This document shows positions 37,387-54,581 of a stretch of DNA of 64,000 nucleotides, piece by piece. The first letter of the stretch is position 1; each line of letters opens with the position of its first letter. The notes under the pieces were generated by a model. That model made no database searches and had not been told where the DNA came from. It saw nothing but the letters and a program-made list of their open reading frames with translations. A program made the position numbers and the translations under genes. The stretch is from Chelatococcus sp. YT9 (GTDB lineage Bacteria; Pseudomonadota; Alphaproteobacteria; Rhizobiales; Beijerinckiaceae): assembly GCF_018398315.1 (NCBI RefSeq), contig NZ_JAHBRW010000001.1:3852501-3916500 (forward strand). The letters are read 5' to 3'.

Positions 37387-37610
37387 TCGCGGTTCGCATT
37401 ACCCGGTTCGTCACACACAGACTGCGGCTCACTCGATATGCGTGGCACTGCCAATGCTGGCTGGCCGGATCTTTAAAGAGGGAATGGAAGGCGGCATCCT
37501 ATTCGTGCGATGACGTGGAGATCATCGCAATGGCAGCCGAAGCATAAGCGGTCGCGAATGGGCTCAAAAACGCCGCTTTCGGTTCTGCGTGAAAAACTCT
37601 GAAAAACGAT

Positions 37611-37657
37611 TGGCTGGGGGACCTGGATTCGAACCAGGACTAACGGAGTCAGAGTCC
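37611..37657 (-). other. 3' half of tRNA-Gln(CUG): phage attachment site
   Basis: Read on the minus strand, the segment contains an anticodon arm with loop CTCTGAC (anticodon CUG), a variable loop, a perfect T-arm (CCTGG-TTCGAAT-CCAGG), an acceptor 3' strand TCCCCCA, discriminator G and an encoded CCA. Upstream of the anticodon stem the match to a tRNA stops: positions 27-28 are GG, which do not pair with 42-43, and no D-arm or 5' acceptor strand follows. It is therefore a 3' fragment, the usual duplicated core left when a phage integrates at a tRNA 3' end. The intact tRNA is expected at the other prophage end. The rest of 37387-37720 shows no gene. Confidence 0.85.
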
Positions 37658-40129: not shown

Positions 40130-40285
40130 GGCCGGCCATTCTATTTCCACCGACAAGAATGAGAACAAAAAAAGAACAAATAGGTTCCTATCCTGTGCTC
40201 TTTGTCACGCCGCGTTGCCGCTGCGACGGCTTGCGTGTGGAAAAAAGGCCGTGCGAAGCTGGGACGATCAAGGGAGGCAGCGCGC

Positions 40286-41014
40286 GTGTGCAATCTCTAC
40301 TCCGTCACCAAAGGCCAGCAGGCTATCCGCGAGCTGGCGAAGGCGTTCGAGGATTACACAGGCAACCTGCAGCGCATGCCGGGCGTCTTCCCCGACTACT
40401 CCGCGCCGATCGTGCGCCATGGGCCGAACGGACGGGCCTTGGCTCTAGCACGATGGGGGATGCCGTCGTCCCAGTTCGCACTGATGCAGGCAGCAAAGAA
40501 GCGCGCCGCGAAGCTCGAAGCCAAGGGCCAGGCGTTTGACTTCAAAGAGCTCCTGAAAATGGAACCGGACAGCGGCACGACCAACGTCCGCAAAACCGAC
40601 AGCAAGCACTGGCAACGCTGGCTGGGGCCAGACAATCGGTGCCTCGTGCCATTCACCTCATTCAGCGAGTTCAACAGAGAGGCCGGCGGCGACATCTGGT
40701 TCGCCCTCAATGAGGAGCGCCCGCTCGCCTTCTTCGGTGGTATCTGGACCGAGCGTTGGCCAAGCGTTCGCAAGATCAAGACCGGACTGGAGGTTGCTGA
40801 CCTCTATGCCTTCCTGACCACGGACGCGAACGCGGAAGTGGCTCCCATCCATCCCACAGCCATGCCCGTCATTCTCACCACCGAGGCGGAACGGGAAATC
40901 TGGATGCGGGCGCCCTGGAGCGAGGCCAGAGACCTACAGCGTCCGCTCCCAGACGGCTCGCTGCAAATCGTAGCCAAAGGCGTCAAGACCGACGACGCTC
41001 TTCCATCTCTTTGA
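40286..41014 (+). CDS. SRAP-family protein (SOS response-associated peptidase, YedK/HMCES-like)
   Basis: Proteins of this family form a thiazolidine crosslink between Cys2 and abasic sites in single-stranded DNA. The start is decided by the catalytic residue: the GTG at 40286 places Cys at position 2 (MCNLYSVTKG) and has AGGGAGG eight bases before it; a longer frame from 40202 would bury the cysteine. Other landmarks are RWGMPS, NVRKTDSKHW, RCLVPFTSFSEFN (conserved acidic residue) and VAPIHPTAMPVIL (conserved His). It has 242 residues. It is one of the few plus-strand genes in the prophage and probably protects phage or host DNA during replication. Confidence 0.92.
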   Translation: MCNLYSVTKGQQAIRELAKAFEDYTGNLQRMPGVFPDYSAPIVRHGPNGRALALARWGMPSSQFALMQAAKKRAAKLEAKGQAFDFKELLKMEPDSGTTNVRKTDSKHWQRWLGPDNRCLVPFTSFSEFNREAGGDIWFALNEERPLAFFGGIWTERWPSVRKIKTGLEVADLYAFLTTDANAEVAPIHPTAMPVILTTEAEREIWMRAPWSEARDLQRPLPDGSLQIVAKGVKTDDALPSL

Positions 41015-41378: not shown

Positions 41379-41569
41379 GACTTCTTCTTAGGTGGCGCCA
41401 GGCACGTCCATGGTTAATGTGATCTTCATGGCTCGATCTCCACAGCCCCGCCTCTATGGAACAAAAGAGGAACGGAAGAGTCAAGCGGTCTAAATGAGCA
41501 ACCGCTTGCGATCGTGAATTCGGCGGGAACGAGGACTTTCTATCCCACCCGCGTCGACTTAATCGTTCC

Positions 41570-44500
41570 CTAAGAGGAACGACGTCGACGGAGCTCCGAC
41601 AAACGAGCATCACCTTGGGTTTCTGGCGCATCAGCAAGAATGTCCAGAAACTCTCCGAACTTGTATGGCCAAAGTGTCGCGTCCTCGGCCAGGATCGCCC
41701 AAAGGAGATCGAGCATAGCGGCTGGGTAGGCCTTTGCAGGGTGATCTTGGGGTTCCGAACGAAGAGGGTATCCTTCAAGCGTGCCGCCCCGCACTGGGAC
41801 CAGCCGCGGGAGGATGGTCTGTACGACCCGCGGGAAATGATCCCCGCTGGCAAAGGCAAGATCGACGAGGCGAAGCGACAATTCAGGCGTTCGCACGACC
41901 CGTTGGTTCGGCCAGACGTGGAGCAGGAAAGGGATCAGGAGGGCAGGCCAGTCGCCTTCCGCTTCCACTGACCAGCGCTCAATAATGGCCAAGATGTTTC
42001 TACGGAGAGCGTCGTCGCCATCGACGAGGATCTCGCGCAATTCGGCATTCGTGACAAGTTGTTGATTTGGATCAGCATCAGGGTCGTCGCCCCATCCAAT
42101 CAGCAGGAACCCGCCGATGACGTTTGCTTCTGCACGTCGGCGCCTGGGGGACCTTGCCCGGGCGAGAAGAGCGGGCTTCAAAAGCTCATAGAGCTTACGA
42201 GAAGGCGCACGTGCGGCCCAGAAGATGCCATCCCACAGCGCATCGCCATCTTCACCCTCATGGCCTGTGATCTCGATCAGATGGGCAATGGTCCATTTAG
42301 GAGCAATATAAAACAGCCAGTCGATCCGGAACCCCAGCATAACCAACACGTGGCGTCTCATGTCCCCCGGCAAGGTCAGCAACTGCTCTTGCCGTCGCGT
42401 CCAGTTCTGGGGCAGGCCCCGGCCCGACGTCCGGATTTGTATCGAAGGCTCCTGCATGAGGAGGCTTGCAATCTTGCCGGCAGGCGCGTTCAACGCGTCA
42501 TTCGCCCAGCTGCTGTCAACACGGCGTTTCCGGCGGTCGTTGCGCAGATGTAGCGCGGCAATGAGTGGGTCCCAAACGCGCTCAATGGCTGGGGTCGGCC
42601 CATCAAAGGCACGCGGGCCCAATCCTTGTAGCCATTCGGCGACAGGATAAGCGATGCTGCTGAGCGAAGCAGGAGGCAACGTGGCAAGACGGGAGCCGAT
42701 AGCGAGGACGAGCCGCGCCGGATCGCTCTTGCGCTTCTCCGATTGGAGAAAGGCAGCCCAAAAGGAGAACGGGATCTCATTCTTACGCGCGGCACTGCTA
42801 AGCGCAGCCAGTGCTCGTACCGGTCTTTTCTCCGCCAGGTCTTTGAACGGGCGCCGCTCGACCTGGTCAGAATAGCTCGACTGGCTTGCAGTGCGCGCGC
42901 GCTCTAGGATCTCCCCGATAGGGACTTGGTCAAGCCGCTCCGGTTCTGTTTCTGTGTCTACTCCGCGCCCGGAAGTCGCGCGTATTCCCGTAGCTCCTCC
43001 CTCCGATCGATCTGACCAGTCCACGGCAATAGAACGAAGCGCTGCGATTTCAGCGTTCACGTCAAACGAGAAGGATAGTCCCTCACGTACTAGCCAGTGC
43101 AGACGGTCGAGCCGATAATGTGCCTCCGCCCGTGCTTTTCTATCGGCTGTGAGATCCGACCAGGGAAAGTTGGTTGTACGTAGACGCCGCTCAAACCGTT
43201 CACGATCCTCAGCCGAAAAATCTGCCCAGCGATCACGGATCGCATAGAGCAGATCTCGCCGGTGCAATGAACCCCAAAAAACTTTGTCCGGAAAACCGAG
43301 AAGAACGTCAGCAGCAACACCCGGCGCTATAACTGGCTTGCCCGCTGCCCAGATGCGCAAGCGGCCAAAAATATAACTGTCTTCCTTCGGCCAACAGGCG
43401 ATTTCCCTACGCGCGCGTCGCGGCGAGATTTTTATCAGTCTTTCCATGAGCTGCATGAAATGCGCTATCGGACCGATGAGACCATAGGCGCCAAAGGATA
43501 TTGGCTCCCCACCATCATCAGGGCGCGTATCGCCTATCTGAATTATAGGTTGGCCGATTTCAGTCTCAAGCGAACGGGCGAGATCAAGGTTCTCGCGGAA
43601 GCGCGTGACCGCGTAAGCCAGTTGCTCGTCAGGAATATGTAGTTGTTCGTAAGGATGCGGATAGTCGACATCGTGATATAGCAGCGCATCGGGGCATTCG
43701 CCATCGGTCCACGAGAGCGGATGCGGCACAATAATGCCCCGACGCACCTTTAGCCGCGGCTGGAACAGGGCCGCATAATCGCGGACGCGCATTTCCGACC
43801 ATCCTTCGCGTTTTACGCGCTGATAGAGCTCATAGTAGGACTGGTTAGGCTCCTCGCGCTGATCTAGCCAGTCGGCGATTAGCATGCGCCAGCCGTGACG
43901 AATATCGTCGGGCCACCGCTGCGGCTCCTCACGAAGGGCTGATTGAATCATCCGGACAATGTCCGGGTGAAGCGGACCACAACCGGCGGCCCACCATAAT
44001 GCTATTGGTTGATGGGCGACACGACTGAACCATATTCCGACACTACGCAGGCGGGTGGAAAGATTTCCCGCGAGGTTCTGCGGGGCGCCGCAGAACCCCC
44101 CCAGGTCGTCGACGCTTGTATCTTCTTGGTCGGAGGCCATGGTCGCGAAAGCGCTCCATGACCCTTCCGGGGCCGTGCGGTCCTGTCGCTCGTGAACGTC
44201 GTCTACCGGCTGCGGCGGAGTGTCGAAGTCGAGCCCTAAACTTTCGTATGGGTCGATGCGCTGGTCGGACTCGCCATAGGGATCAACGAGGTCTGGCTTT
44301 TCAAAGCGCAAGCGCGGGTCGAACGCGAGCAACCATGATGCCGGCAGCGGCCTTTCAGCAATGCTCACCCGTCGAGCGCCTCGGCGAGTTGAGAGCACGT
44401 GCGCGATCTGGCCGCGCACATGTGGATCAAGCGCTGCGGGGCCGCCTGCCGCGCTTTCAAGCAACTTAGTGTACCAGCCATCAACGTCGCGAGCGCGCTC

Positions 44501-45367
44501 AGCCCAGGCCGCAAGACTGTCCCATAGCGGATCGAAACTTTCGGAGTTGTCGAACGAGATCGCTCGGACCCCGCGATGTTCCCATAGGGCGGCATCGTCG
44601 GAACTTCCGCCTGCCTGAAATGCAAAAAGACGGCTACGATTACCCGCTCGCAGGTTTAGTGCTTCAAGCAAATACTGAACCGGCGGGTCGTCAGCGCCGT
44701 AGCCGACGAAGACTATCTGGTAGCGGGCGAGCAGCGACTGGATAAAACGCGTGGCCCAGCCGTCAGACAGGTAGGCACGGCCAAAGTCAGCACTGGAGAC
44801 GACAAACTCTTCGTCACTCGGTCCTGAATAGTCTTTTTTGACTCGGCCGTGAAGATGCACAATACCACGAAAACCTCCGCCTCTCGGATCTGGAAGATCG
44901 GGCGGAGCGAAGCAGACGGCCTCTGGAGCGCTATCTTCAAACAGGAGGTCGAAGTTGGTGGTAACTAACCGCACCGAGCCGTCTCGTCCCCGCGAAAGAT
45001 CGATCAAGGATTTGTGTGCGCTCAGATCCGGAGACTTGTCCGGCTTAATGGCCCGTGCGACAGCGTTCTTGATGTCCTGCGGTTCGAACTCGCGCTCGAG
45101 GAGACTGAATATGCGATCCGTGGGAATGAGTGCGCCGACTCCGTCGAGTGGGCGCCCGAGCGCCTCTATTCGCTGGAACAGCTTACGCGCCAGGCTGTTC
45201 CTGCCAGCACCTAGTAGTTCGATGACATCACTGCCGAGCTTGAGAAAGTCCGGCAAGCGAGCGCGGTGACGTGACACGCCTGCACCGCAAAAGAAGATGA
45301 CGTCGCCTGCATCGCGCGCCATAAGAAGATCATCTGGAATGGAAGGGCCGTTAGCCAGAAAGCGCAT
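41570..45367 (-). CDS. Large SIR2-domain protein, defence-associated sirtuin-like
   Basis: 1265 residues. The N-terminal ~300 residues form a SIR2 NAD-binding domain: VIFFCGAGVSRHRARLPDF (GAGxS, residues 28-32), LVTTNFDLLFE (about 135-144), IVHLHGRV with the catalytic-type histidine (about 173), and VFVGYGADDPPVQYLLEAL (about 219-237). The remaining ~950 residues are largely helical and have no motif I recognise; this resembles the sensor part of DSR1/DSR2 proteins, which deplete NAD after phage infection. There is no partner gene in the same operon. It stands alone between the XRE gene and a small phage gene. Defence role is inferred from architecture and location. Confidence 0.8.
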   Translation of the reverse strand: MRFLANGPSIPDDLLMARDAGDVIFFCGAGVSRHRARLPDFLKLGSDVIELLGAGRNSLARKLFQRIEALGRPLDGVGALIPTDRIFSLLEREFEPQDIKNAVARAIKPDKSPDLSAHKSLIDLSRGRDGSVRLVTTNFDLLFEDSAPEAVCFAPPDLPDPRGGGFRGIVHLHGRVKKDYSGPSDEEFVVSSADFGRAYLSDGWATRFIQSLLARYQIVFVGYGADDPPVQYLLEALNLRAGNRSRLFAFQAGGSSDDAALWEHRGVRAISFDNSESFDPLWDSLAAWAERARDVDGWYTKLLESAAGGPAALDPHVRGQIAHVLSTRRGARRVSIAERPLPASWLLAFDPRLRFEKPDLVDPYGESDQRIDPYESLGLDFDTPPQPVDDVHERQDRTAPEGSWSAFATMASDQEDTSVDDLGGFCGAPQNLAGNLSTRLRSVGIWFSRVAHQPIALWWAAGCGPLHPDIVRMIQSALREEPQRWPDDIRHGWRMLIADWLDQREEPNQSYYELYQRVKREGWSEMRVRDYAALFQPRLKVRRGIIVPHPLSWTDGECPDALLYHDVDYPHPYEQLHIPDEQLAYAVTRFRENLDLARSLETEIGQPIIQIGDTRPDDGGEPISFGAYGLIGPIAHFMQLMERLIKISPRRARREIACWPKEDSYIFGRLRIWAAGKPVIAPGVAADVLLGFPDKVFWGSLHRRDLLYAIRDRWADFSAEDRERFERRLRTTNFPWSDLTADRKARAEAHYRLDRLHWLVREGLSFSFDVNAEIAALRSIAVDWSDRSEGGATGIRATSGRGVDTETEPERLDQVPIGEILERARTASQSSYSDQVERRPFKDLAEKRPVRALAALSSAARKNEIPFSFWAAFLQSEKRKSDPARLVLAIGSRLATLPPASLSSIAYPVAEWLQGLGPRAFDGPTPAIERVWDPLIAALHLRNDRRKRRVDSSWANDALNAPAGKIASLLMQEPSIQIRTSGRGLPQNWTRRQEQLLTLPGDMRRHVLVMLGFRIDWLFYIAPKWTIAHLIEITGHEGEDGDALWDGIFWAARAPSRKLYELLKPALLARARSPRRRRAEANVIGGFLLIGWGDDPDADPNQQLVTNAELREILVDGDDALRRNILAIIERWSVEAEGDWPALLIPFLLHVWPNQRVVRTPELSLRLVDLAFASGDHFPRVVQTILPRLVPVRGGTLEGYPLRSEPQDHPAKAYPAAMLDLLWAILAEDATLWPYKFGEFLDILADAPETQGDARLSELRRRRSS

Positions 45368-45466
45368 GCGCGGACCGCCTAGGGGAGACCCGATGATAGC
45401 GCCGCATCTCGCTTGTACAAAACGCGAAAGGCGCTTTTACTACTGCGGATTCGATAGATTGTCTTG

Positions 45467-45622
45467 ATGATTGATTTCTTTAAAATGGCCGACCCCCAAC
45501 TTTTCCCCGAATGGTTTATTGCAGATTACCTCGGCAGACGTCCACACCATCACCCTTCGCGCTCTATCCGCCACGTTCCAGGCGCGCACTGGATCACCGG
45601 CTGTGTTGGCGCCGCCTATTGA
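45467..45622 (+). CDS. Possible small plus-strand ORF
   Basis: A 51-codon frame starting at ATG 45467 and ending in TGA at 45620-45622. It encodes MIDFFKMADPQLFPEWF and a His-rich middle. It fits exactly between the divergent SIR2 gene and the convergent XRE gene, overlapping the latter's stop by seven bases. There is no good ribosome binding site and I know no homologue, so this may be chance. The upstream stretch 45368-45466 should contain the SIR2 promoter. Confidence 0.25.
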   Translation: MIDFFKMADPQLFPEWFIADYLGRRPHHHPSRSIRHVPGAHWITGCVGAAY

Positions 45623-45834
45623 GGCTGCGGCCCCTCATAATCCCGTATGCCGAGCGCGAGCGCGGCGCAAGCAAGCTCGATGGACTTCGGGATCACGACC
45701 GCGCGGCCGTCTTCATGGCGGCTGCCCCGCTCATAGAGCTGAACAGAGGGCACGCTGATGCCGAGCAGGTCAGCGGCGGCGGGCTGGGAGAGCTTCATGT
45801 GCTTGCGCCACGCCTTGAACTGGTCGGGTGTCAT
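45616..45834 (-). CDS. Small XRE-family DNA-binding protein
   Basis: 72 residues from the ATG at 45834 (GAGGAT upstream), starting MTPDQFKAWRKHMKLSQPAA. The helix-turn-helix runs through LSQPAAADLLGISVPSVQLYERG. It has no added effector domain. The short form and position after a structured leader suggest a regulator of the neighbouring phage or defence genes, or of the lysis operon that lies upstream on the same strand. The C-terminus SIELACAALALGIRDYE is a common short helix in such proteins. The frame continues 34 codons upstream of the ATG without support. Confidence 0.82.
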   Translation of the reverse strand: MTPDQFKAWRKHMKLSQPAAADLLGISVPSVQLYERGSRHEDGRAVVIPKSIELACAALALGIRDYEGPQPQ

Positions 45835-45852
45835 GGTAATATCCTCGTCGAG

Positions 45853-45991
45853 GAGGTGAGCCGCTTCCTTTCCGGTGGGAGCCGGACTTTCGTCCGGCCC
45901 CCGTTGGCTTAGCCTATGATCAAGATGATTGTGCAACCAAGGATCTTGATCTTCAGCACTACCTTCCGGACTTTCAAACGGCTCACCTCCT
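45853..45991 (-). promoter_or_regulatory. Leader with long-range pairing that can mask a ribosome binding site
   Basis: On the minus-strand transcript AGGAGGTGAGCCG (45991-45979) is exactly complementary to CGGCTCACCTCCT (45865-45853). The first element contains the ribosome binding site of the tiny frame at 45977; the second lies just before the XRE ribosome binding site. Between them is a strong local hairpin GCCGGAC-GAAA-GTCCGGC (45900-45883), and GAAAGTCCGG occurs twice. The arrangement allows alternative foldings, as in attenuators or type I toxin messages. This is read directly from base complementarity; function is inferred. Confidence 0.6.
45909..45977 (-). CDS. Hydrophobic micro-peptide (22 residues)
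   Basis: A frame starting with TTG at 45977, eight bases after AGGAGG, or with GTG at 45986. It encodes a short basic N-terminus (MKVRKVVLKIK) followed by a hydrophobic tail (ILGCTIILIIG) and a TAA stop. The composition resembles small membrane-acting toxins or a regulatory leader peptide. Its ribosome binding site is complementary to a segment ahead of the XRE gene. Too short for family recognition; coding is inferred from the binding site and composition. Confidence 0.45.
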   Translation of the reverse strand: MKVRKVVLKIKILGCTIILIIG

Positions 45992-46111: not shown

Positions 46112-46375
46112 CTATTTCAGGCTGAATGCCCGGAAGCCCAAGGTCAGCAGGGTGATGAGCCCGCCCACAAGCGCGAGGATGATCGCTGTGCCGATCTTGC
46201 TGGCGGTGCTGTCAACGGCCTTGCGCAACCGACGAATAAATCGGAAGTCCTCACGGGCTTCATCGATATGAGCGGGCTCGTCAGCTCTCAATCCCATGTC
46301 ATGGAGAGCGTCCTTGACGGCCTCCTGCACGATTGCCCGCAGCTCATCCTTGCTGATCGTGACGGCGTCATTCAT
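46112..46375 (-). CDS. DUF6127-like small phage membrane protein
   Basis: 87 residues. The N-terminus begins MNDAVTISKDELRAIVQEAV, a helical segment common to small phage proteins of this type. The C-terminus is one membrane segment (GTAIILALVGGLITLLTLGF). It is the last gene of the lysis operon, its ATG overlapping the Rz1-like stop by four bases. A role as a second holin or an anti-holin is possible, inferred from position. Family assignment is by resemblance only. Confidence 0.7.
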   Translation of the reverse strand: MNDAVTISKDELRAIVQEAVKDALHDMGLRADEPAHIDEAREDFRFIRRLRKAVDSTASKIGTAIILALVGGLITLLTLGFRAFSLK

Positions 46376-46650
46376 CGCCAGCCCTCCCGGAGCGCATCGT
46401 CACGGGCGATCAGCCGGAGGCCACAGCGCTGTTGTGAACCGGATCGAGCCCGGTCAATCTTCCAAAGGCGTTCAGTGTCTTCGACCGACAGCGCGCGGTC
46501 GGGGATCTCGACGACACCGACGAAGCAGCGGCGGATGTCGAGCGGGATGTCAGGCAACTTGGGAGCCTCGGCAGGCGGTGGCGCCACTTCACGGGCGGTG
46601 CCGCATCCAGCCAAGACGAGAAGGAGGGGCAGGACGAGGATCTGTCGCAT
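46372..46650 (-). CDS. Rz1-like outer-membrane spanin lipoprotein
   Basis: 92 residues. It starts with a lipoprotein signal peptide, LVLPLLLVLAGCGTA-type, with the lipobox LAGC, followed by a Pro-rich linker (APPPAEAPKLPDIPL). This is the pattern of the outer-membrane subunit of a two-component spanin that fuses inner and outer membranes in the last step of lysis. It is coupled to the inner-membrane subunit by a one-base TGATG overlap. At 92 residues it is longer than classical Rz1, with an extra C-terminal domain. Confidence 0.78.
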   Translation of the reverse strand: MRQILVLPLLLVLAGCGTAREVAPPPAEAPKLPDIPLDIRRCFVGVVEIPDRALSVEDTERLWKIDRARSGSQQRCGLRLIARDDALREGWR

Positions 46651-46979
46651 CAGCGCACCCCTCGGATACGACGGACAACATCGTCAGGCAGGGCTGGCGC
46701 GCTGTTGGCCGGGGTATCATCGATCGCCGCGCGGTTGGCCTCTTCGATGCTGTCGTGAGCAGACTTCATCTGAGCGTCGGCAGCATCGGCCCGGGCGATT
46801 GCGGCGTTGCGCTCGATGACGAGTTCGGCCTGACGTGCGCGCCACGTAGCCCGCTCCGCTTCAACGCCGTCCTGATACTTCAGGATGCCATAGCCCCGCA
46901 CGCCTCCGGCCGCGAGGATCGCCAGCACGAGATAGACCGCGATCGGTGGCATGCCGATGGCCGAAGCGAGGGCGTTCAT
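46650..46979 (-). CDS. Rz-like inner-membrane spanin subunit
   Basis: 109 residues from ATG 46979. An N-terminal membrane anchor (AVYLVLAILAAGGVRGYGIL) is followed by a long charged helix (AERATWRARQAELVIERNAA and beyond) that would span the periplasm as a coiled coil. This is the typical architecture of the inner-membrane spanin. Its ATG overlaps the endolysin stop by four bases. A longer frame running to 47102 is a shadow of the endolysin gene. Confidence 0.78.
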   Translation of the reverse strand: MNALASAIGMPPIAVYLVLAILAAGGVRGYGILKYQDGVEAERATWRARQAELVIERNAAIARADAADAQMKSAHDSIEEANRAAIDDTPANSAPALPDDVVRRIRGVR

Positions 46980-47488
46980 TTCAGGCTCTCCAGGCATAGC
47001 TCGAGCTCGCCCATCCGGTTCGCGTCGCCGTACTCGCGGCGGGTCTTCAGCCCAGCAATGACCTTGCCGCCGGCCCGGTTGAACCACGTCATCGCATGGC
47101 ATGAGCCGCGGAAGTCGCCAACCCGCGCCCGCTTCGCCGCCGTCGACGAGCAGGCCGCCCCGACGCCGATGTTGTAGGCCTCATCCAGCATCGCCCCTTG
47201 CCATCCGAGCGGGGCATCGTCGAAGCCGGGGATGCAACGGGTGAGCGGCTTGTGGAAGTCATTCTCCAGGCGGGACAGGAGCATCGCCTTGCACTCGGCA
47301 TCCGTCTTCACCATGCCGGGTTTTACGTTGAGTGTTTCGCCCGTGCAGATGGTCCAGACCTGCCCAAGCCTGTCCCAATAGGCCTTGTTGACGGTGCCTT
47401 CCCAGGGTTCGGTCAGATAGGTGGCTGTCATGGCAACGAGGCCAAGCGCGGCCCCAGCCGCCAGAGCCTTTCGGGCGCGAGCGCTCAT
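46976..47488 (-). CDS. SAR endolysin, phage lysozyme family (GH24)
   Basis: 170-residue muramidase that cleaves peptidoglycan glycans. The N-terminus has a weakly hydrophobic Gly/Ala-rich segment (ALAAGAALGLVAMTATYL), typical of a signal-arrest-release endolysin tethered to the membrane until the holin acts. The catalytic triad is visible as Glu30 in TEPWEG, Asp39 in AYWDRLG and Thr46 in VWTICTGET. The C-terminus has several cysteines that may switch the enzyme on. It overlaps both neighbours by four bases. Confidence 0.9.
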   Translation of the reverse strand: MSARARKALAAGAALGLVAMTATYLTEPWEGTVNKAYWDRLGQVWTICTGETLNVKPGMVKTDAECKAMLLSRLENDFHKPLTRCIPGFDDAPLGWQGAMLDEAYNIGVGAACSSTAAKRARVGDFRGSCHAMTWFNRAGGKVIAGLKTRREYGDANRMGELELCLESLK

Positions 47489-47709
47489 TCTTGTTCTCCT
47501 GAAACGGACTTTTGAGCGACGATGCGGGCGACAAAGCCGGCGCAGACCGTCAGACCCGAGAGAGCGGCGAAAGTGCCGCGATGGACGGGAAGGATCTCTT
47601 GAAGAAGCGGGAGGGCGACTTCAGCGCCGGACAGGACGCCCGCGAGAAGAAGCAGGCGGATGCTCCAGGCATAGCGCAGGACCTCGCGCCAGTTGGGGAC
47701 GAGCTTCAC
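47485..47709 (-). CDS. Small phage membrane protein, holin candidate (DUF7940-like)
   Basis: 74 residues starting at a GTG (47709). It begins MKLVPNWREVLRYAWSIRL and has two hydrophobic segments (LLLLAGVLSGAEVALPLLQ and FAALSGLTVCAGFVARIVA). This size, topology and position directly before the endolysin gene are those of a class II holin. It is coupled by four-base overlaps to both the small lipoprotein gene and the endolysin gene. The assignment is from position and topology. Confidence 0.72.
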   Translation of the reverse strand: MKLVPNWREVLRYAWSIRLLLLAGVLSGAEVALPLLQEILPVHRGTFAALSGLTVCAGFVARIVAQKSVSGEQE

Positions 47710-47831
47710 CGCTTCTCACCCTCAACCACGTGGCGAGTGCCATTGGTAACATCAGCCCAATAGTTGCTCTCGCGAGACGCGCACGCGCTCACGGCCGCGG
47801 CGATAAGCGCCACGATTAGAATGATTCTCAT
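47706..47831 (-). CDS. Small lipoprotein at the head of the lysis operon
   Basis: 41 residues, missed by length cut-offs. ATG 47831 is preceded by CGGAGAT. The product begins MRIILIVALIAAAVSACAS, a lipoprotein signal peptide with lipobox VSAC, followed by a short polar tail ending in EGEKR. Its TGA overlaps the GTG of the holin candidate. Role unknown; entry-exclusion lipoproteins of phages have similar size, and a spanin-type role is less likely since a complete Rz/Rz1 pair is present. A decayed relative lies at 49099-49266. Confidence 0.65.
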   Translation of the reverse strand: MRIILIVALIAAAVSACASRESNYWADVTNGTRHVVEGEKR

Positions 47832-48540
47832 CGATATCTCCGAACGTTAATAACCTTGTGGCGCGTCGACGCGCGTGATTGTCTGAGGTGCTCAGCTGAC
47901 GGGTCGGCAGGCCCAAGGAGGAGTTGGACCGAAGTCGGCGCGCACGCAGAGCCGAAGCCCCTGGCCGTGACCGCCTCGCGGCTGGGGGCGGGCTGCCTCG
48001 CCTGCTGCGAGCGGAACAACCGGCCTGCTAATCGCTTGCTAAAGAAGAGCACTGCCGACGGGCTCACCGGTCGGCGGGCATCTCAGTCAAGCGGCAGGTG
48101 TCGGGTGATTGAAGAAGCCGAGTTGCAACTGGCCTTCCGACAAGTCGACCTCGCGAGGCGGCTTGTGACCCGTCAGTCGGCGTTGGTGAAACGGTTGCGT
48201 GCAGCTAAGGCTGAGACTTCATCCGCTGAGCAGGTTCTTGCCCTTCTGGAGGCATCGCGTGACGCTCACGAGGCTCACCTCAATAGATTGCTGAGGCGGA
48301 CCGGCCGAATGCCGCAAAAGTAATTTCCCCCTCCGGAACATGCCGGTTGCTCCCTTATTTCCTCTGTGCTCCTGGTCTCGGCACCTCGGCATCCAGAGAA
48401 TCCCCGGCCTCACTCGTCGCTTACCAAAGCGGGCCGGGGAACCAAGGAGGAGCCTCTCAGCCGAGAGGGACAGATCCAAGTTGCTCGAGAGATCCCCCGC
48501 CGCGGCTTTCCATGGCAGTCGGGGTTCTCTTGTGTAGATG
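47821..48540. repeat. Diverged duplication, block A
   Basis: Block A shares a series of segments in the same order as block B (49255-49806). They are: the TCATCnATnTCTCCGAACGTT lipoprotein leader; CGTGATTG; a GCCGAAGCC-type segment running into a GCGGC-GGGGGCGGGCT hairpin; a CCCCGGC...GCCGGGG stem; and a TTCCATGGCAG-CGGGGTTCTCT hairpin. The spacing differs because a small gene (48105-48323) lies in block A only. The copies are about 1.4 kb apart and strongly diverged. Confidence 0.6.
48105..48323 (+). CDS. Small helical hypothetical protein
   Basis: 72 residues from a GTG at 48105. The product (VIEEAELQLAFRQVDLARRL then VTRQSALVKRLRAAKAET) is helical, Arg/Ala/Leu-rich, and resembles small uncharacterised proteins common in Hyphomicrobiales genomes. 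A longer frame to 47856 is compositionally unlike a protein and was rejected. The binding site (GGCAGG) is weak. It lies on the opposite strand to the phage late genes, inside duplication block A, so it is probably cargo with its own promoter. Confidence 0.5.
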   Translation: MIEEAELQLAFRQVDLARRLVTRQSALVKRLRAAKAETSSAEQVLALLEASRDAHEAHLNRLLRRTGRMPQK

Positions 48541-52202: not shown

Positions 52203-54581
52203 CTACGCCTTGAGGATGCCTTTCGCATAAATCTCCGGTTCGATCTTTTCGGTCAGAGCGCGATAGGACGAGTCGATGTCACCCGGGCGAGCAGAAACCG
52301 CTATGCCTTGGCCGACCAACGCCTCCAGCGTATTGCGGATCTGGTACCAGCCGACGTCCGCTCTGTTGAGCTTAAACTCGTCGCGGATGCTCTTCGCGAT
52401 CTGCTTCTTCTCGAAGGCATTGAAGTACGCCGACCACACCTTTCGCCCATCGGCCAGAACCTTCTTAGCTTCCTTTGATAGCTTCAGGGTTGCGAGATGG
52501 CTTGACATGAAGTCAGATTCGAAGCGGCTTGGCGCCCCCACCTCCTCCTCGGTGTAAGGGATAAAGTGGTTCACCAGCGACCAGCTCTTTCCCTGCCACA
52601 GGAGGCCATCAGCGCCGACAGAGAGGTTCCGGTTGTTGAACAGCATCCAGACCAGGCAATCGTTGGCCATTTCTTCCGGGATGGTCTGCGAAGGAATAAG
52701 AAATTGGTCACGATCGTTAAGCCAGGTCTGGCGGATGATGCGTTTGGCCGTGAAAACCACCGCAGATTGCCAGAGGTTCTCTTCGGTAACCAGGAAGCCT
52801 CCCGCACTGGCATAACCCGAGGAAAAGAGTACGGTGTTACCCGCATGCTGGAGGTCAGATCCATTGCTGATCATCCCGCCAATCGCGCCCTCAGCCCAGC
52901 GTGTGCCGCGAACATCTATCGTCCGGCTCGTCGGCTCTAAGGCATTCGTGAGTGGTAACGCCGGTGTCGAGTTCGGCCTAGCACGCTTAATCCATGCATT
53001 GAGCAGTCTGTTTTTGGGCACGTCGTAGAACCGCTTGGCCCCGATCGGCTTGGCATACCTGTCGAGCACCTCCGCCTCGATCTCGAAGGGCTCCTTGCGC
53101 CTTTTAGCAGTGTCCCACACCAGAAAACCGATGGGGAACTCACCCTTCAACCCGTCAAAAGCACGGCTAGGGACAACGAACCCGCCTAGATAGCGGGCAT
53201 TCCACTCATTACGGAAGTTGTCGAAGTTTGGCGCGTTGACGTACTTAAGCTTCGAAAATATGGCCACGATCGCATTGGGGAGCTCGGCCTGGATGCGCAG
53301 CAGGAACTGAATAAACAGCTCCCGGCGGGCGAACCCAACGTCACCTCCCAGAGCACGACCCACCGCGGTGGTCGCCACCCCTGCGCCGGCATTCATGGCC
53401 TCCGCATACGGAGGATTGATCAAGACAACGATCTTTTCCTTGGCGGCAATGGCGTCCCGCAGCTCCTGCGGGAGCTTGTCAGTAAGGCTGTAGTCGATCT
53501 TGCCGTCTTCGGTGACGTCGTCGTTGAGGTAGTCGTACTGGAAACGGTAAGCTGCGACGCAGGTTCTGGTGGCCTTCATAACGTCAACGTCGGACTGGTC
53601 GAGCGTAGACATGAAAAGGTTGCGATGATTGGAGTGCTTAACCTCGAGGTTCCCAACCCCACAGCACATGTCCCAGACCTTGTATTTCTTCTGCCAGTTC
53701 TTCCCCAGGACGAAGGCCAGGTGGTCATAGGCCTTATCTACGACATGCAGCGGAGTATAGAACGCTCCCTTGAAGACACGCTCTACGACCGGGATCAAAC
53801 TGTCCCTGCGCTCGAGGATCTCGTTCCGGTAATCCTTCTTGGGAGGCCGGTGGTAGATCGACCAAAAGCGCCGGTACCCTTCCACGTTGCGTAGGGCATG
53901 CAGCTTTCCGTGAAGGTCGAATACGGGATCACCGTCTCTGAAGAGCAGCTTGGCGGTCAGGTCCTTGTGCGTCGACACGGTGCCGTCGTTCATGATGTCG
54001 GCGAAGAAGAGAAGGTTGTAGCTATCCTCCTCGACATCCTCGATCTCCTGGCCGATCATCTCCACCCACTTGTCGAACACCTGCTTGAGGTTGTCCGGGG
54101 TGATCTGAGTGCGGATAATAGCGCCGGACGCGATCGCGTCCTTTACTGTCGTGACGAACTCTGCGGCATCGTTTTCGATATTGAAGGCAACGAAGTGGGT
54201 GCCGATGTGTATCGAGATCGCGTCCACGGCCTCCTTTGGCACCGCTGAGGCAGATTTACCCCACTTGATAGTCTTCTTAGCCAAGAACGGGATGACGTGG
54301 CTGCTCTGCATCAGGGCAGCCTTCTCCGTGTCGATCACGCACAGCAGCGCCGGAACATGCTCGCCCCTGTTCAGCGCCACCTGCACGTAGTGGAGCAACT
54401 GAGTGAACATCTCATAGAAGGTCCAAGAATCCTTGGCCTTCGCCTCAAACCAAACCTCTTTGGTCTGGATATCGATGATGTTCTTGGAGTAGCTCTTCAG
54501 CCCGAGAGCTTTGATGTAGGCGTCCTTGACGTCTTCTTCGCTCTTGGATTTCTGCAGATCGGCGTAAAGCCCCACGTTCAA
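52203..54581 (-). CDS. Putative type II (IIG-like) restriction-methylation fusion
   Basis: 792 residues. An N-terminal ~150-residue region contains IIDIQTKEVWFEAKAKDS, compatible with a PD-(D/E)xK nuclease core (Glu46-x-Lys48). It is followed by a gamma-type N6-adenine methyltransferase domain with FYTP (motif X, about 274-277), DMCCGVGNLE (motif I, about 304-313) and NPPY (motif IV, about 389-392). The C-terminal ~350 residues, with WLNDRDQFLIP, are compatible with target recognition. No separate specificity or nuclease gene is nearby. Numbering is from a TTG at 54581; the GTG two codons later has a better spaced GGGGAGG. It could protect the prophage host against other phages. No related protein is named with confidence. 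Confidence 0.75.
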   Translation of the reverse strand: MNVGLYADLQKSKSEEDVKDAYIKALGLKSYSKNIIDIQTKEVWFEAKAKDSWTFYEMFTQLLHYVQVALNRGEHVPALLCVIDTEKAALMQSSHVIPFLAKKTIKWGKSASAVPKEAVDAISIHIGTHFVAFNIENDAAEFVTTVKDAIASGAIIRTQITPDNLKQVFDKWVEMIGQEIEDVEEDSYNLLFFADIMNDGTVSTHKDLTAKLLFRDGDPVFDLHGKLHALRNVEGYRRFWSIYHRPPKKDYRNEILERRDSLIPVVERVFKGAFYTPLHVVDKAYDHLAFVLGKNWQKKYKVWDMCCGVGNLEVKHSNHRNLFMSTLDQSDVDVMKATRTCVAAYRFQYDYLNDDVTEDGKIDYSLTDKLPQELRDAIAAKEKIVVLINPPYAEAMNAGAGVATTAVGRALGGDVGFARRELFIQFLLRIQAELPNAIVAIFSKLKYVNAPNFDNFRNEWNARYLGGFVVPSRAFDGLKGEFPIGFLVWDTAKRRKEPFEIEAEVLDRYAKPIGAKRFYDVPKNRLLNAWIKRARPNSTPALPLTNALEPTSRTIDVRGTRWAEGAIGGMISNGSDLQHAGNTVLFSSGYASAGGFLVTEENLWQSAVVFTAKRIIRQTWLNDRDQFLIPSQTIPEEMANDCLVWMLFNNRNLSVGADGLLWQGKSWSLVNHFIPYTEEEVGAPSRFESDFMSSHLATLKLSKEAKKVLADGRKVWSAYFNAFEKKQIAKSIRDEFKLNRADVGWYQIRNTLEALVGQGIAVSARPGDIDSSYRALTEKIEPEIYAKGILKA

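Follow-up and report, generated by a model that had tools for sequence, protein, structure and literature searches.

A 64,000-nucleotide stretch of the genome of Chelatococcus sp. YT9 (contig NZ_JAHBRW010000001.1, positions 3,852,501 to 3,916,500; hereafter the window) contains a prophage gene for a 1265-residue protein with an N-terminal SIR2 domain, which we call the SIR2 protein. The question raised by this locus is whether the protein is an anti-phage enzyme that destroys nicotinamide adenine dinucleotide (NAD+), as a first-pass annotation of the letters had proposed by comparison with the defence-associated sirtuins DSR1 and DSR2, and, if so, how closely it is related to either. By sequence comparison it is homologous to DSR1 over its whole length, C-terminus included, and it is a member of a sister clade of the DSR1 defined by NCBI rather than DSR1 in the strict sense. 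We consider it most likely, with a probability of about 0.82, that the gene works alone as an anti-phage defence of the DSR1 type and that a temperate phage carries it as cargo that can be swapped.

The open reading frame (ORF) at 41570-45367 runs from ATG to stop through 1265 uninterrupted codons; a stop-free run of this length would arise by chance with a probability of ∼2e-19 at the gene's base composition. The coordinates given by the first-pass annotation proved exact, and the strand, which it had left unstated, is minus. All four SIR2 motifs that it had read as intact are present in the protein, GAGVS at residues 28-32, TTNFD at 136-140, LHG at 172-174 and GYGADDP at 222-228, and a profile search confirmed the domain, with Pfam SIR2_2 matching residues 134-270 (E 5.3e-18) as the sole family up to E 1. 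A promoter scan found no minus-strand site upstream of the gene. The gene and its two parts are as follows.

41570-45367, minus strand: DSR1-like defence-associated sirtuin gene, 1265 amino acids (ORF, SIR2 motifs, Pfam SIR2_2, Dsr1 models)
44468-45367, minus strand: predicted SIR2 NADase domain, residues 1-300 (Pfam SIR2_2 at 134-270; N138, H173 and D227 invariant)
41570-44467, minus strand: C-terminal, nearly all-helical solenoid, residues 301-1265 and stop codon, presumed sensor and assembly region (AlphaFold; homology to the DSR1 C-terminus)

Relation to DSR1 and DSR2

The two best PADLOC matches to the SIR2 protein were both Dsr1 models (E 6.5e-72 and 4.2e-70). The NCBIfam Dsr1 model NF041818 matched it in two stretches, model positions 1-365 and 650-1259, and matched another member of its clade (L030) in a single stretch, 1-1260 of 1263. 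Since this model matches within the C-terminus, though no Pfam domain does, that region is partly recognised at family level; the earlier statement that it holds no recognised domain stands for Pfam but not overall. A profile-profile alignment of 14 clade members with nine Dsr1-side rows extended over 1191 columns at 24% identity (E 1.1e-99), and an hhalign comparison of the C-termini alone (60 against 9 rows) covered 906 columns at 20% identity (E 3.1e-53). Because both alignments, whole and C-terminal, match, we regard the window protein and DSR1 as full-length homologues in sister clades.

In a tree of 117 distinct ORFs of at least 1000 residues (from 143 collected), made by a quick method with a midpoint root and flagged by the program for long branches and uneven composition, one branch with a Shimodaira-Hasegawa-like approximate likelihood ratio (SH-aLRT) support of 100 split 24 rows from 93 rows, and the window protein lay among the 93. 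The 24-row side consists of all eight rows in the tree that exceed the NCBI cut-off for Dsr1 and 16 others. A ninth match above that cut-off, L036, is interrupted by two internal stop codons and stood outside the tree. The idea that the window protein is DSR1 itself was therefore rejected in the strict sense, since it scores 325 bits against a cut-off of 1400 and falls on the other side of the branch. In the broad sense of DSR1, the protein has both a SIR2 domain with the catalytic Asn and His and the C-terminal homology. It shares with DSR1 (NF041818; PADLOC Dsr1) the form of a single protein of ∼1265 residues with N-terminal SIR2 and homology along its whole length, and rows of both sides occur on viral contigs; it differs in its sister-clade position at 24% profile identity, in its score and in the alanine that its clade has at position 225.

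None of the 93 clade rows departs from N138, H173 or D227, the last within the GYGADDP motif, and N138 and H173 are predicted to form the catalytic pair. Their equivalents in DSR2, N133 and H171, abolish NAD+ cleavage when lost together and are reported to be conserved in DSR1 too (PMC11087589, PMC10973363). Position 225 is Ala throughout the 93 clade rows but Ile, Val or Leu in 22 of the 24 Dsr1-side rows, and residues 361-430 are mostly missing in 17 Dsr1-side rows (mean coverage 36%). Identity of the window protein to its relatives is lowest at residues 361-430 and 761-960. The ratio of nonsynonymous to synonymous substitution rates (dN/dS) against four relatives was 0.055-0.077 for residues 1-300 and 0.126-0.147 for residues 301-1265, values that are only rough because synonymous sites are near saturation. 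At the sequence level these ratios show that the gene is under purifying selection and that its C-terminal part is evolving faster than its SIR2 part.

An AlphaFold model of residues 1-1199, built with 67 relatives and ending before the final 66 residues, had a mean predicted local distance difference test score (pLDDT) of 84.6 and a predicted template modelling score (pTM) of 0.62; a second model, of residues 301-1265 with 59 relatives, had a mean pLDDT of 85.6 and a pTM of 0.56. The first 300 residues form a SIR2 part with strands and the remainder is almost only helices, in keeping with the mostly helical C-terminus described from the letters, so that we predict an almost all-helical, HEAT-like solenoid for this region. 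When residues 1-1199 were compared with the Protein Data Bank (PDB) by Foldseek, ranks 1-44 were all DSR2 chains (best E 5.5e-11). ThsA (Thoeris), KomC and Avs5, which share the SIR2 NADase type of domain, came after DSR2, within ranks 45-50; these proteins have different sensor parts or partner genes, none of which turned up at this locus.

Several results weigh against the assignment to a DSR1-type defence. The SIR2 protein reached only 324.7 bits on NF041818, far from the curated cut-off of 1400, and seven of seven relatives tested on the same model were likewise under it, at 306-400 bits. Template modelling (TM) scores to the 44 DSR2 chains were low, 0.17-0.24 with a root-mean-square deviation of 43-48 Å, so the overall shape differs from that of DSR2, though the local order of elements agrees. 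The C-terminus alone matched HEAT-repeat proteins instead (karyopherins, CAND1, the PP2A scaffold; best E 2.6e-4), with TM-scores of at most 0.38 among the 50 matches listed of 770; these 50 also include a few chains of giant kinases whose helical regions are long (DNA-PK, ATR, mTOR), and no DSR2. Searches by other routes gave no match of the C-terminal profile to PDB sequences at E up to 10, DSR2 included, and none of the C-terminus in a viral structure library at E 0.001 or better. Profiles of either clade matched PDB sequences at E 0.01 only in short pieces of the SIR2 part, and we saw no solved structure for either clade; nor did literature searches limited to open-licence papers bring up any on the trigger or structure of DSR1.

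The suggestion that the C-terminus is that of DSR2 is accordingly unsupported, there being no DSR2 among the 50 listed folds and no profile match at E up to 10. The match to generic solenoids nevertheless does not refute the comparison, because the DSR2 C-terminus is itself a helical solenoid, described as horseshoe-shaped (PMC11087589). DSR2 of Bacillus subtilis (activated by the tail tube; PDB 8wy8 and others) resembles the window protein in having a SIR2 domain ahead of a long solenoid of helices and in its catalytic Asn and His, and differs in its length of 1005 residues and in a C-terminus that neither fold (among the 50 listed) nor profile connects with that of the window protein. The likeness to DSR1/DSR2 proposed at the outset is hence borne out for DSR1 by full-length sequence, family models and catalytic residues, but not as strict DSR1 membership and not for the DSR2 C-terminus.

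The prophage and its cargo slot

The SIR2 gene lies ∼4 kb inside the left end of what is, by its sequence, a complete-looking prophage of a long-tailed phage, ∼62 kb long and inserted at tRNA-Gln. The left end is marked by a 48-bp direct repeat whose far copy, 62 kb away, is the 3' part of an intact tRNA-Gln gene (L163 16349-16422), and the DNA left of the SIR2 gene, when searched against phage genomes, matched the tRNA-Gln 3' end in one phage record. Between the two copies are genes for an integrase (adjacent to the far copy), for the terminase large subunit, portal, head protease and major head protein, for a tail terminator, tail tube (PF18906, Phage_tube_2; L162 9118-10305), chaperone, tape measure and tip and fibre proteins, and for lysis. 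This attachment-site repeat, together with the terminase, portal, protease, capsid, tail and integrase genes, upholds the view that the gene is prophage-borne. Its placement beside a lysis operon was also correct, as it lies 1.3 kb from a spanin-like gene (weak PHROGs match, E 3e-4), which is followed by an endolysin gene (E 2e-36), all on the same strand and with a small helix-turn-helix (HTH) gene and a small hypothetical gene in between. A tblastn search of deposited phage genomes with the SIR2 protein gave no match. The features around the gene are listed below.

37610-37657, no strand: prophage attachment-site repeat, 48 bp, copy of the tRNA-Gln 3' part (identical to L163 16348-16395)
40983-41378, minus strand: hypothetical gene downstream of the SIR2 gene, backbone and not a partner (in two sister prophages without SIR2)
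41488-45624, no strand: cargo slot, the SIR2 gene and short flanks, unmatched in sister prophages (homology edges)
45616-45936, minus strand: small HTH gene upstream of the SIR2 gene, backbone and not a partner (HTH_3; DNA 86% identical in a sister without SIR2)
46650-47488, minus strand: lysis genes, Rz-like spanin (weak match) and endolysin (PHROGs; DNA 85.6% identical in one sister prophage)

For comparison we used seven sister-prophage stretches from four genomes (one in G391, three in G386, two in G387 and one in the window's own genome), each of 20-36 kb and so not necessarily spanning a whole prophage; one partial match in G387 and five weak ones in G399 were left outside this set. The second related prophage of the own genome (G000:C1:713501-748000; L182, L183) has three tail-region proteins that are 41-45% identical. 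The SIR2 protein had no match in any of the seven stretches, the own-genome prophage included, and three genomes of the same genus, searched whole, contained no SIR2 relative at E 0.001. The two G387 prophages match the DNA at 83-85% identity up to 41486/41487, 83 bp before the SIR2 stop codon, and the match to one G386 prophage (86%) starts at 45625, 258 bp from the start codon; the two edges are never visible in one and the same sister. A different G386 prophage matches the lysis block at 46372-47844 with 85.6% identity. Because sister homology stops and resumes around it, the SIR2 gene stands alone between two pieces of backbone, and because sisters carry the flanking DNA without the gene, it looks, from these alignments, like swapped-in cargo. 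At third codon positions the GC content (GC3) of the SIR2 gene is 0.61; it is 0.70 in one host gene and 0.75-0.82 in five further genes of the prophage. The short repeats that flank the slot (21 bp, 86%) were indistinguishable from chance.

The genes on both sides of the SIR2 gene occur in sister prophages that lack it, in agreement with the earlier statement that it has no partner; no linked partner emerged from this comparison, and none was common to the 11 plasmid loci described below. The hallmarks of Thoeris ThsA, SIR2-HerA and SIR2-pAgo systems (a partner gene or SLOG) were likewise absent, only SIR2_2 being detected by Pfam and the flanks being prophage backbone. Elsewhere in the prophage, the minus-strand gene at 52203-54581 encodes a 792-residue protein weakly like type II methyltransferases (PADLOC E 6e-5; no Pfam match), in DNA of lower GC (0.57), and this protein is unmatched in the seven sister stretches; the gene is possibly a second piece of cargo, perhaps for a restriction-methylation enzyme. 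An SOS-associated peptidase (SRAP) gene at 40202-41014 on the plus strand, opposite to its neighbours, is ∼86% identical in two sister prophages.

Relatives of the protein and other explanations of its role

Searches with an alignment query identified a relative in 417 of 484 candidate stretches of genome contigs from one genome collection, not all of them certain members of the clade, and in 19 of 31 candidates from viral contigs. The best 80 of the 417 were kept, and each of them that was placed in the tree grouped with the sister clade. Scans of the genome and viral contigs with the single sequence returned no relatives, probably because requiring exact peptide words is too stringent. Among plasmids, 76 records had a match, and in 29 of these a single place spans at least 80% of the query; the loci of 11 of the 76 were examined with their annotation. 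Sister-clade members are found on chromosomes, plasmids and viral contigs. The nearest kin, 64-72% identical, include proteins from Sphingomonas, Paracoccus, Ancylobacter, Gluconacetobacter and Mesorhizobium and from plasmids. In Sphingomonas tagetis (L113 8001-14165) two SIR2 relatives are adjacent, one full-length and one an ORF of 674 amino acids.

Three of the 11 plasmid loci adjoin defence systems (CBASS, the cyclic oligonucleotide-based anti-phage signalling system, with an AbiEii gene; Shedu; type I restriction-modification), and three others have toxin-antitoxin genes within the examined stretch. A broader count tells on the unfavourable side of the defence reading. Neighbouring ORFs were chosen mechanically at 35 of the 80 loci (at most four per locus, none above 1500 amino acids, some of them spurious) and compared with 117 control ORFs from 19 arbitrary stretches; 138 neighbours gave 14 raw PADLOC defence names, with 25 of their 31 families shown, and the controls 12, so there was no excess. 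The count is crude, being of names rather than proteins and with six of the neighbours' families not shown. Several control names are housekeeping-like (SspA, DndA and RecD types), and those near SIR2 relatives seemed, in an after-the-fact judgement, mostly like genuine systems. Six neighbour matches (Avs2, type IIG restriction-modification, PDC-S18, HamC2, PDC-S51 and PD-Lambda-3 B) had E of 1e-85 or better and the best control match had 1e-56, but the threshold of this comparison was set after seeing the data and we do not count it as proof. As the raw count was no better than control, we dropped the argument from defence islands.

The occurrence of many relatives on plasmids bears on the strongest alternative, which overlaps the preferred reading in all but the trigger: an NADase defence set off by nucleic acid or replication intermediates, or aimed at plasmids. 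The pAgo-linked sirtuins are SIR2 NADases of this kind, triggered by nucleic acid, and the phage trigger that we favour for the clade rests on analogy, with a C-terminus that is not detectably that of DSR2. Pfam, however, identified no nucleic-acid-binding domain, and the annotation of the 11 plasmid loci names no pAgo or HerA, though unnamed proteins and AAA ATPases are present. The C-terminus matches HEAT-like solenoids, which usually bind proteins. We therefore regard a nucleic-acid trigger or plasmid target as unlikely, while giving it more weight than the alternatives that follow.

The viral contigs raise another explanation, in which the gene is a phage weapon, expressed late by the prophage to use up NAD+ and disable its own host during lysis. 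On one contig (L145 8001-12915) a clade relative nearly identical to one from Vibrio sp. has holin and endolysin genes directly downstream, a position resembling that in the window, where the same-strand lysis genes are 1.3 kb away; on other viral contigs integrases lie beside the SIR2 relative. Against this, the phage type can do without the gene, which is unmatched in all seven sister stretches; the annotation of the 11 plasmid loci names no phage lysis gene next to the relatives; and the GC3 of the gene departs from that of the phage genes. A role in lysis is accordingly improbable.

A metabolic or regulatory sirtuin with no part in defence is a still poorer fit. SIR2 folds do include deacetylases, but the only Pfam family here is SIR2_2, the homology to Dsr1 is full-length, the gene sits in a cargo site, and its presence is patchy (15 of 385 genomes of the class and 3 of 60 kin genomes, counting the own genome and several partial matches). 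An inactive relic is equally hard to credit, for although the unlike composition could mean that the gene is not adapted to this host, the frame is fully open, the catalytic residues are invariant and dN/dS is well below 1.

A proposed mechanism and its implications

Because the SIR2 protein is homologous to DSR1, it should be a phage-triggered NADase, and its most likely role, judged from that homology, is to protect the lysogen when a component of an incoming phage sets it off. In DSR2, monomeric tail tube protein is bound via the C-terminal and middle parts, and the SIR2 domain is thereby activated to destroy NAD+ (PMC10981675, PMC10973363). By extension, the SIR2 protein would wait inactive in the lysogen, probably as an oligomer, until its long helical C-terminal solenoid bound a component made by the incoming phage; going by DSR2, the foremost candidate for this component is a structural protein of the virion. 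Binding would free the SIR2 domain to hydrolyse NAD+ with N138 and H173, and multiplication of the phage would stop. According to a review, DSR1 stops phage without cell death and DSR2 with it (PMC10952713); the SIR2 protein may likewise act with or without killing the cell.

A prophage that carries such a receptor must escape it on induction, and some route for sparing itself is therefore needed. Since no gene travels with the SIR2 gene, we propose that perhaps the sensor ignores the proteins of its own phage, or induction shuts off the gene, or an unlinked gene of the phage inhibits the SIR2 protein. The Tha/Ith pair of Staphylococcus aureus prophages is similar in being a prophage-carried defence obliged to spare its own phage, and differs in that it is described as a HEPN RNase with a linked antisense inhibitor gene (PMC11087260), whereas no gene is tied to the SIR2 gene of the window.

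The named Dsr1 model of NCBI fails to reach the sister clade, whose members carry just the product name 'SIR2 family protein' in the 11 plasmid records. A bounded prophage with SIR2-free sisters in the same genus offers a clean setting for asking how a prophage's own NADase spares the prophage. We suggest tentatively, and with the odds against it, that the sister clade represents a second immune receptor of the DSR1 type that answers to a phage trigger of its own, and that temperate phages can carry it without a linked inhibitor because its solenoid is blind to the virion proteins of the carrier. If this is true, self and non-self would be discriminated between related phages by the sensor alone, unlike in Tha/Ith.

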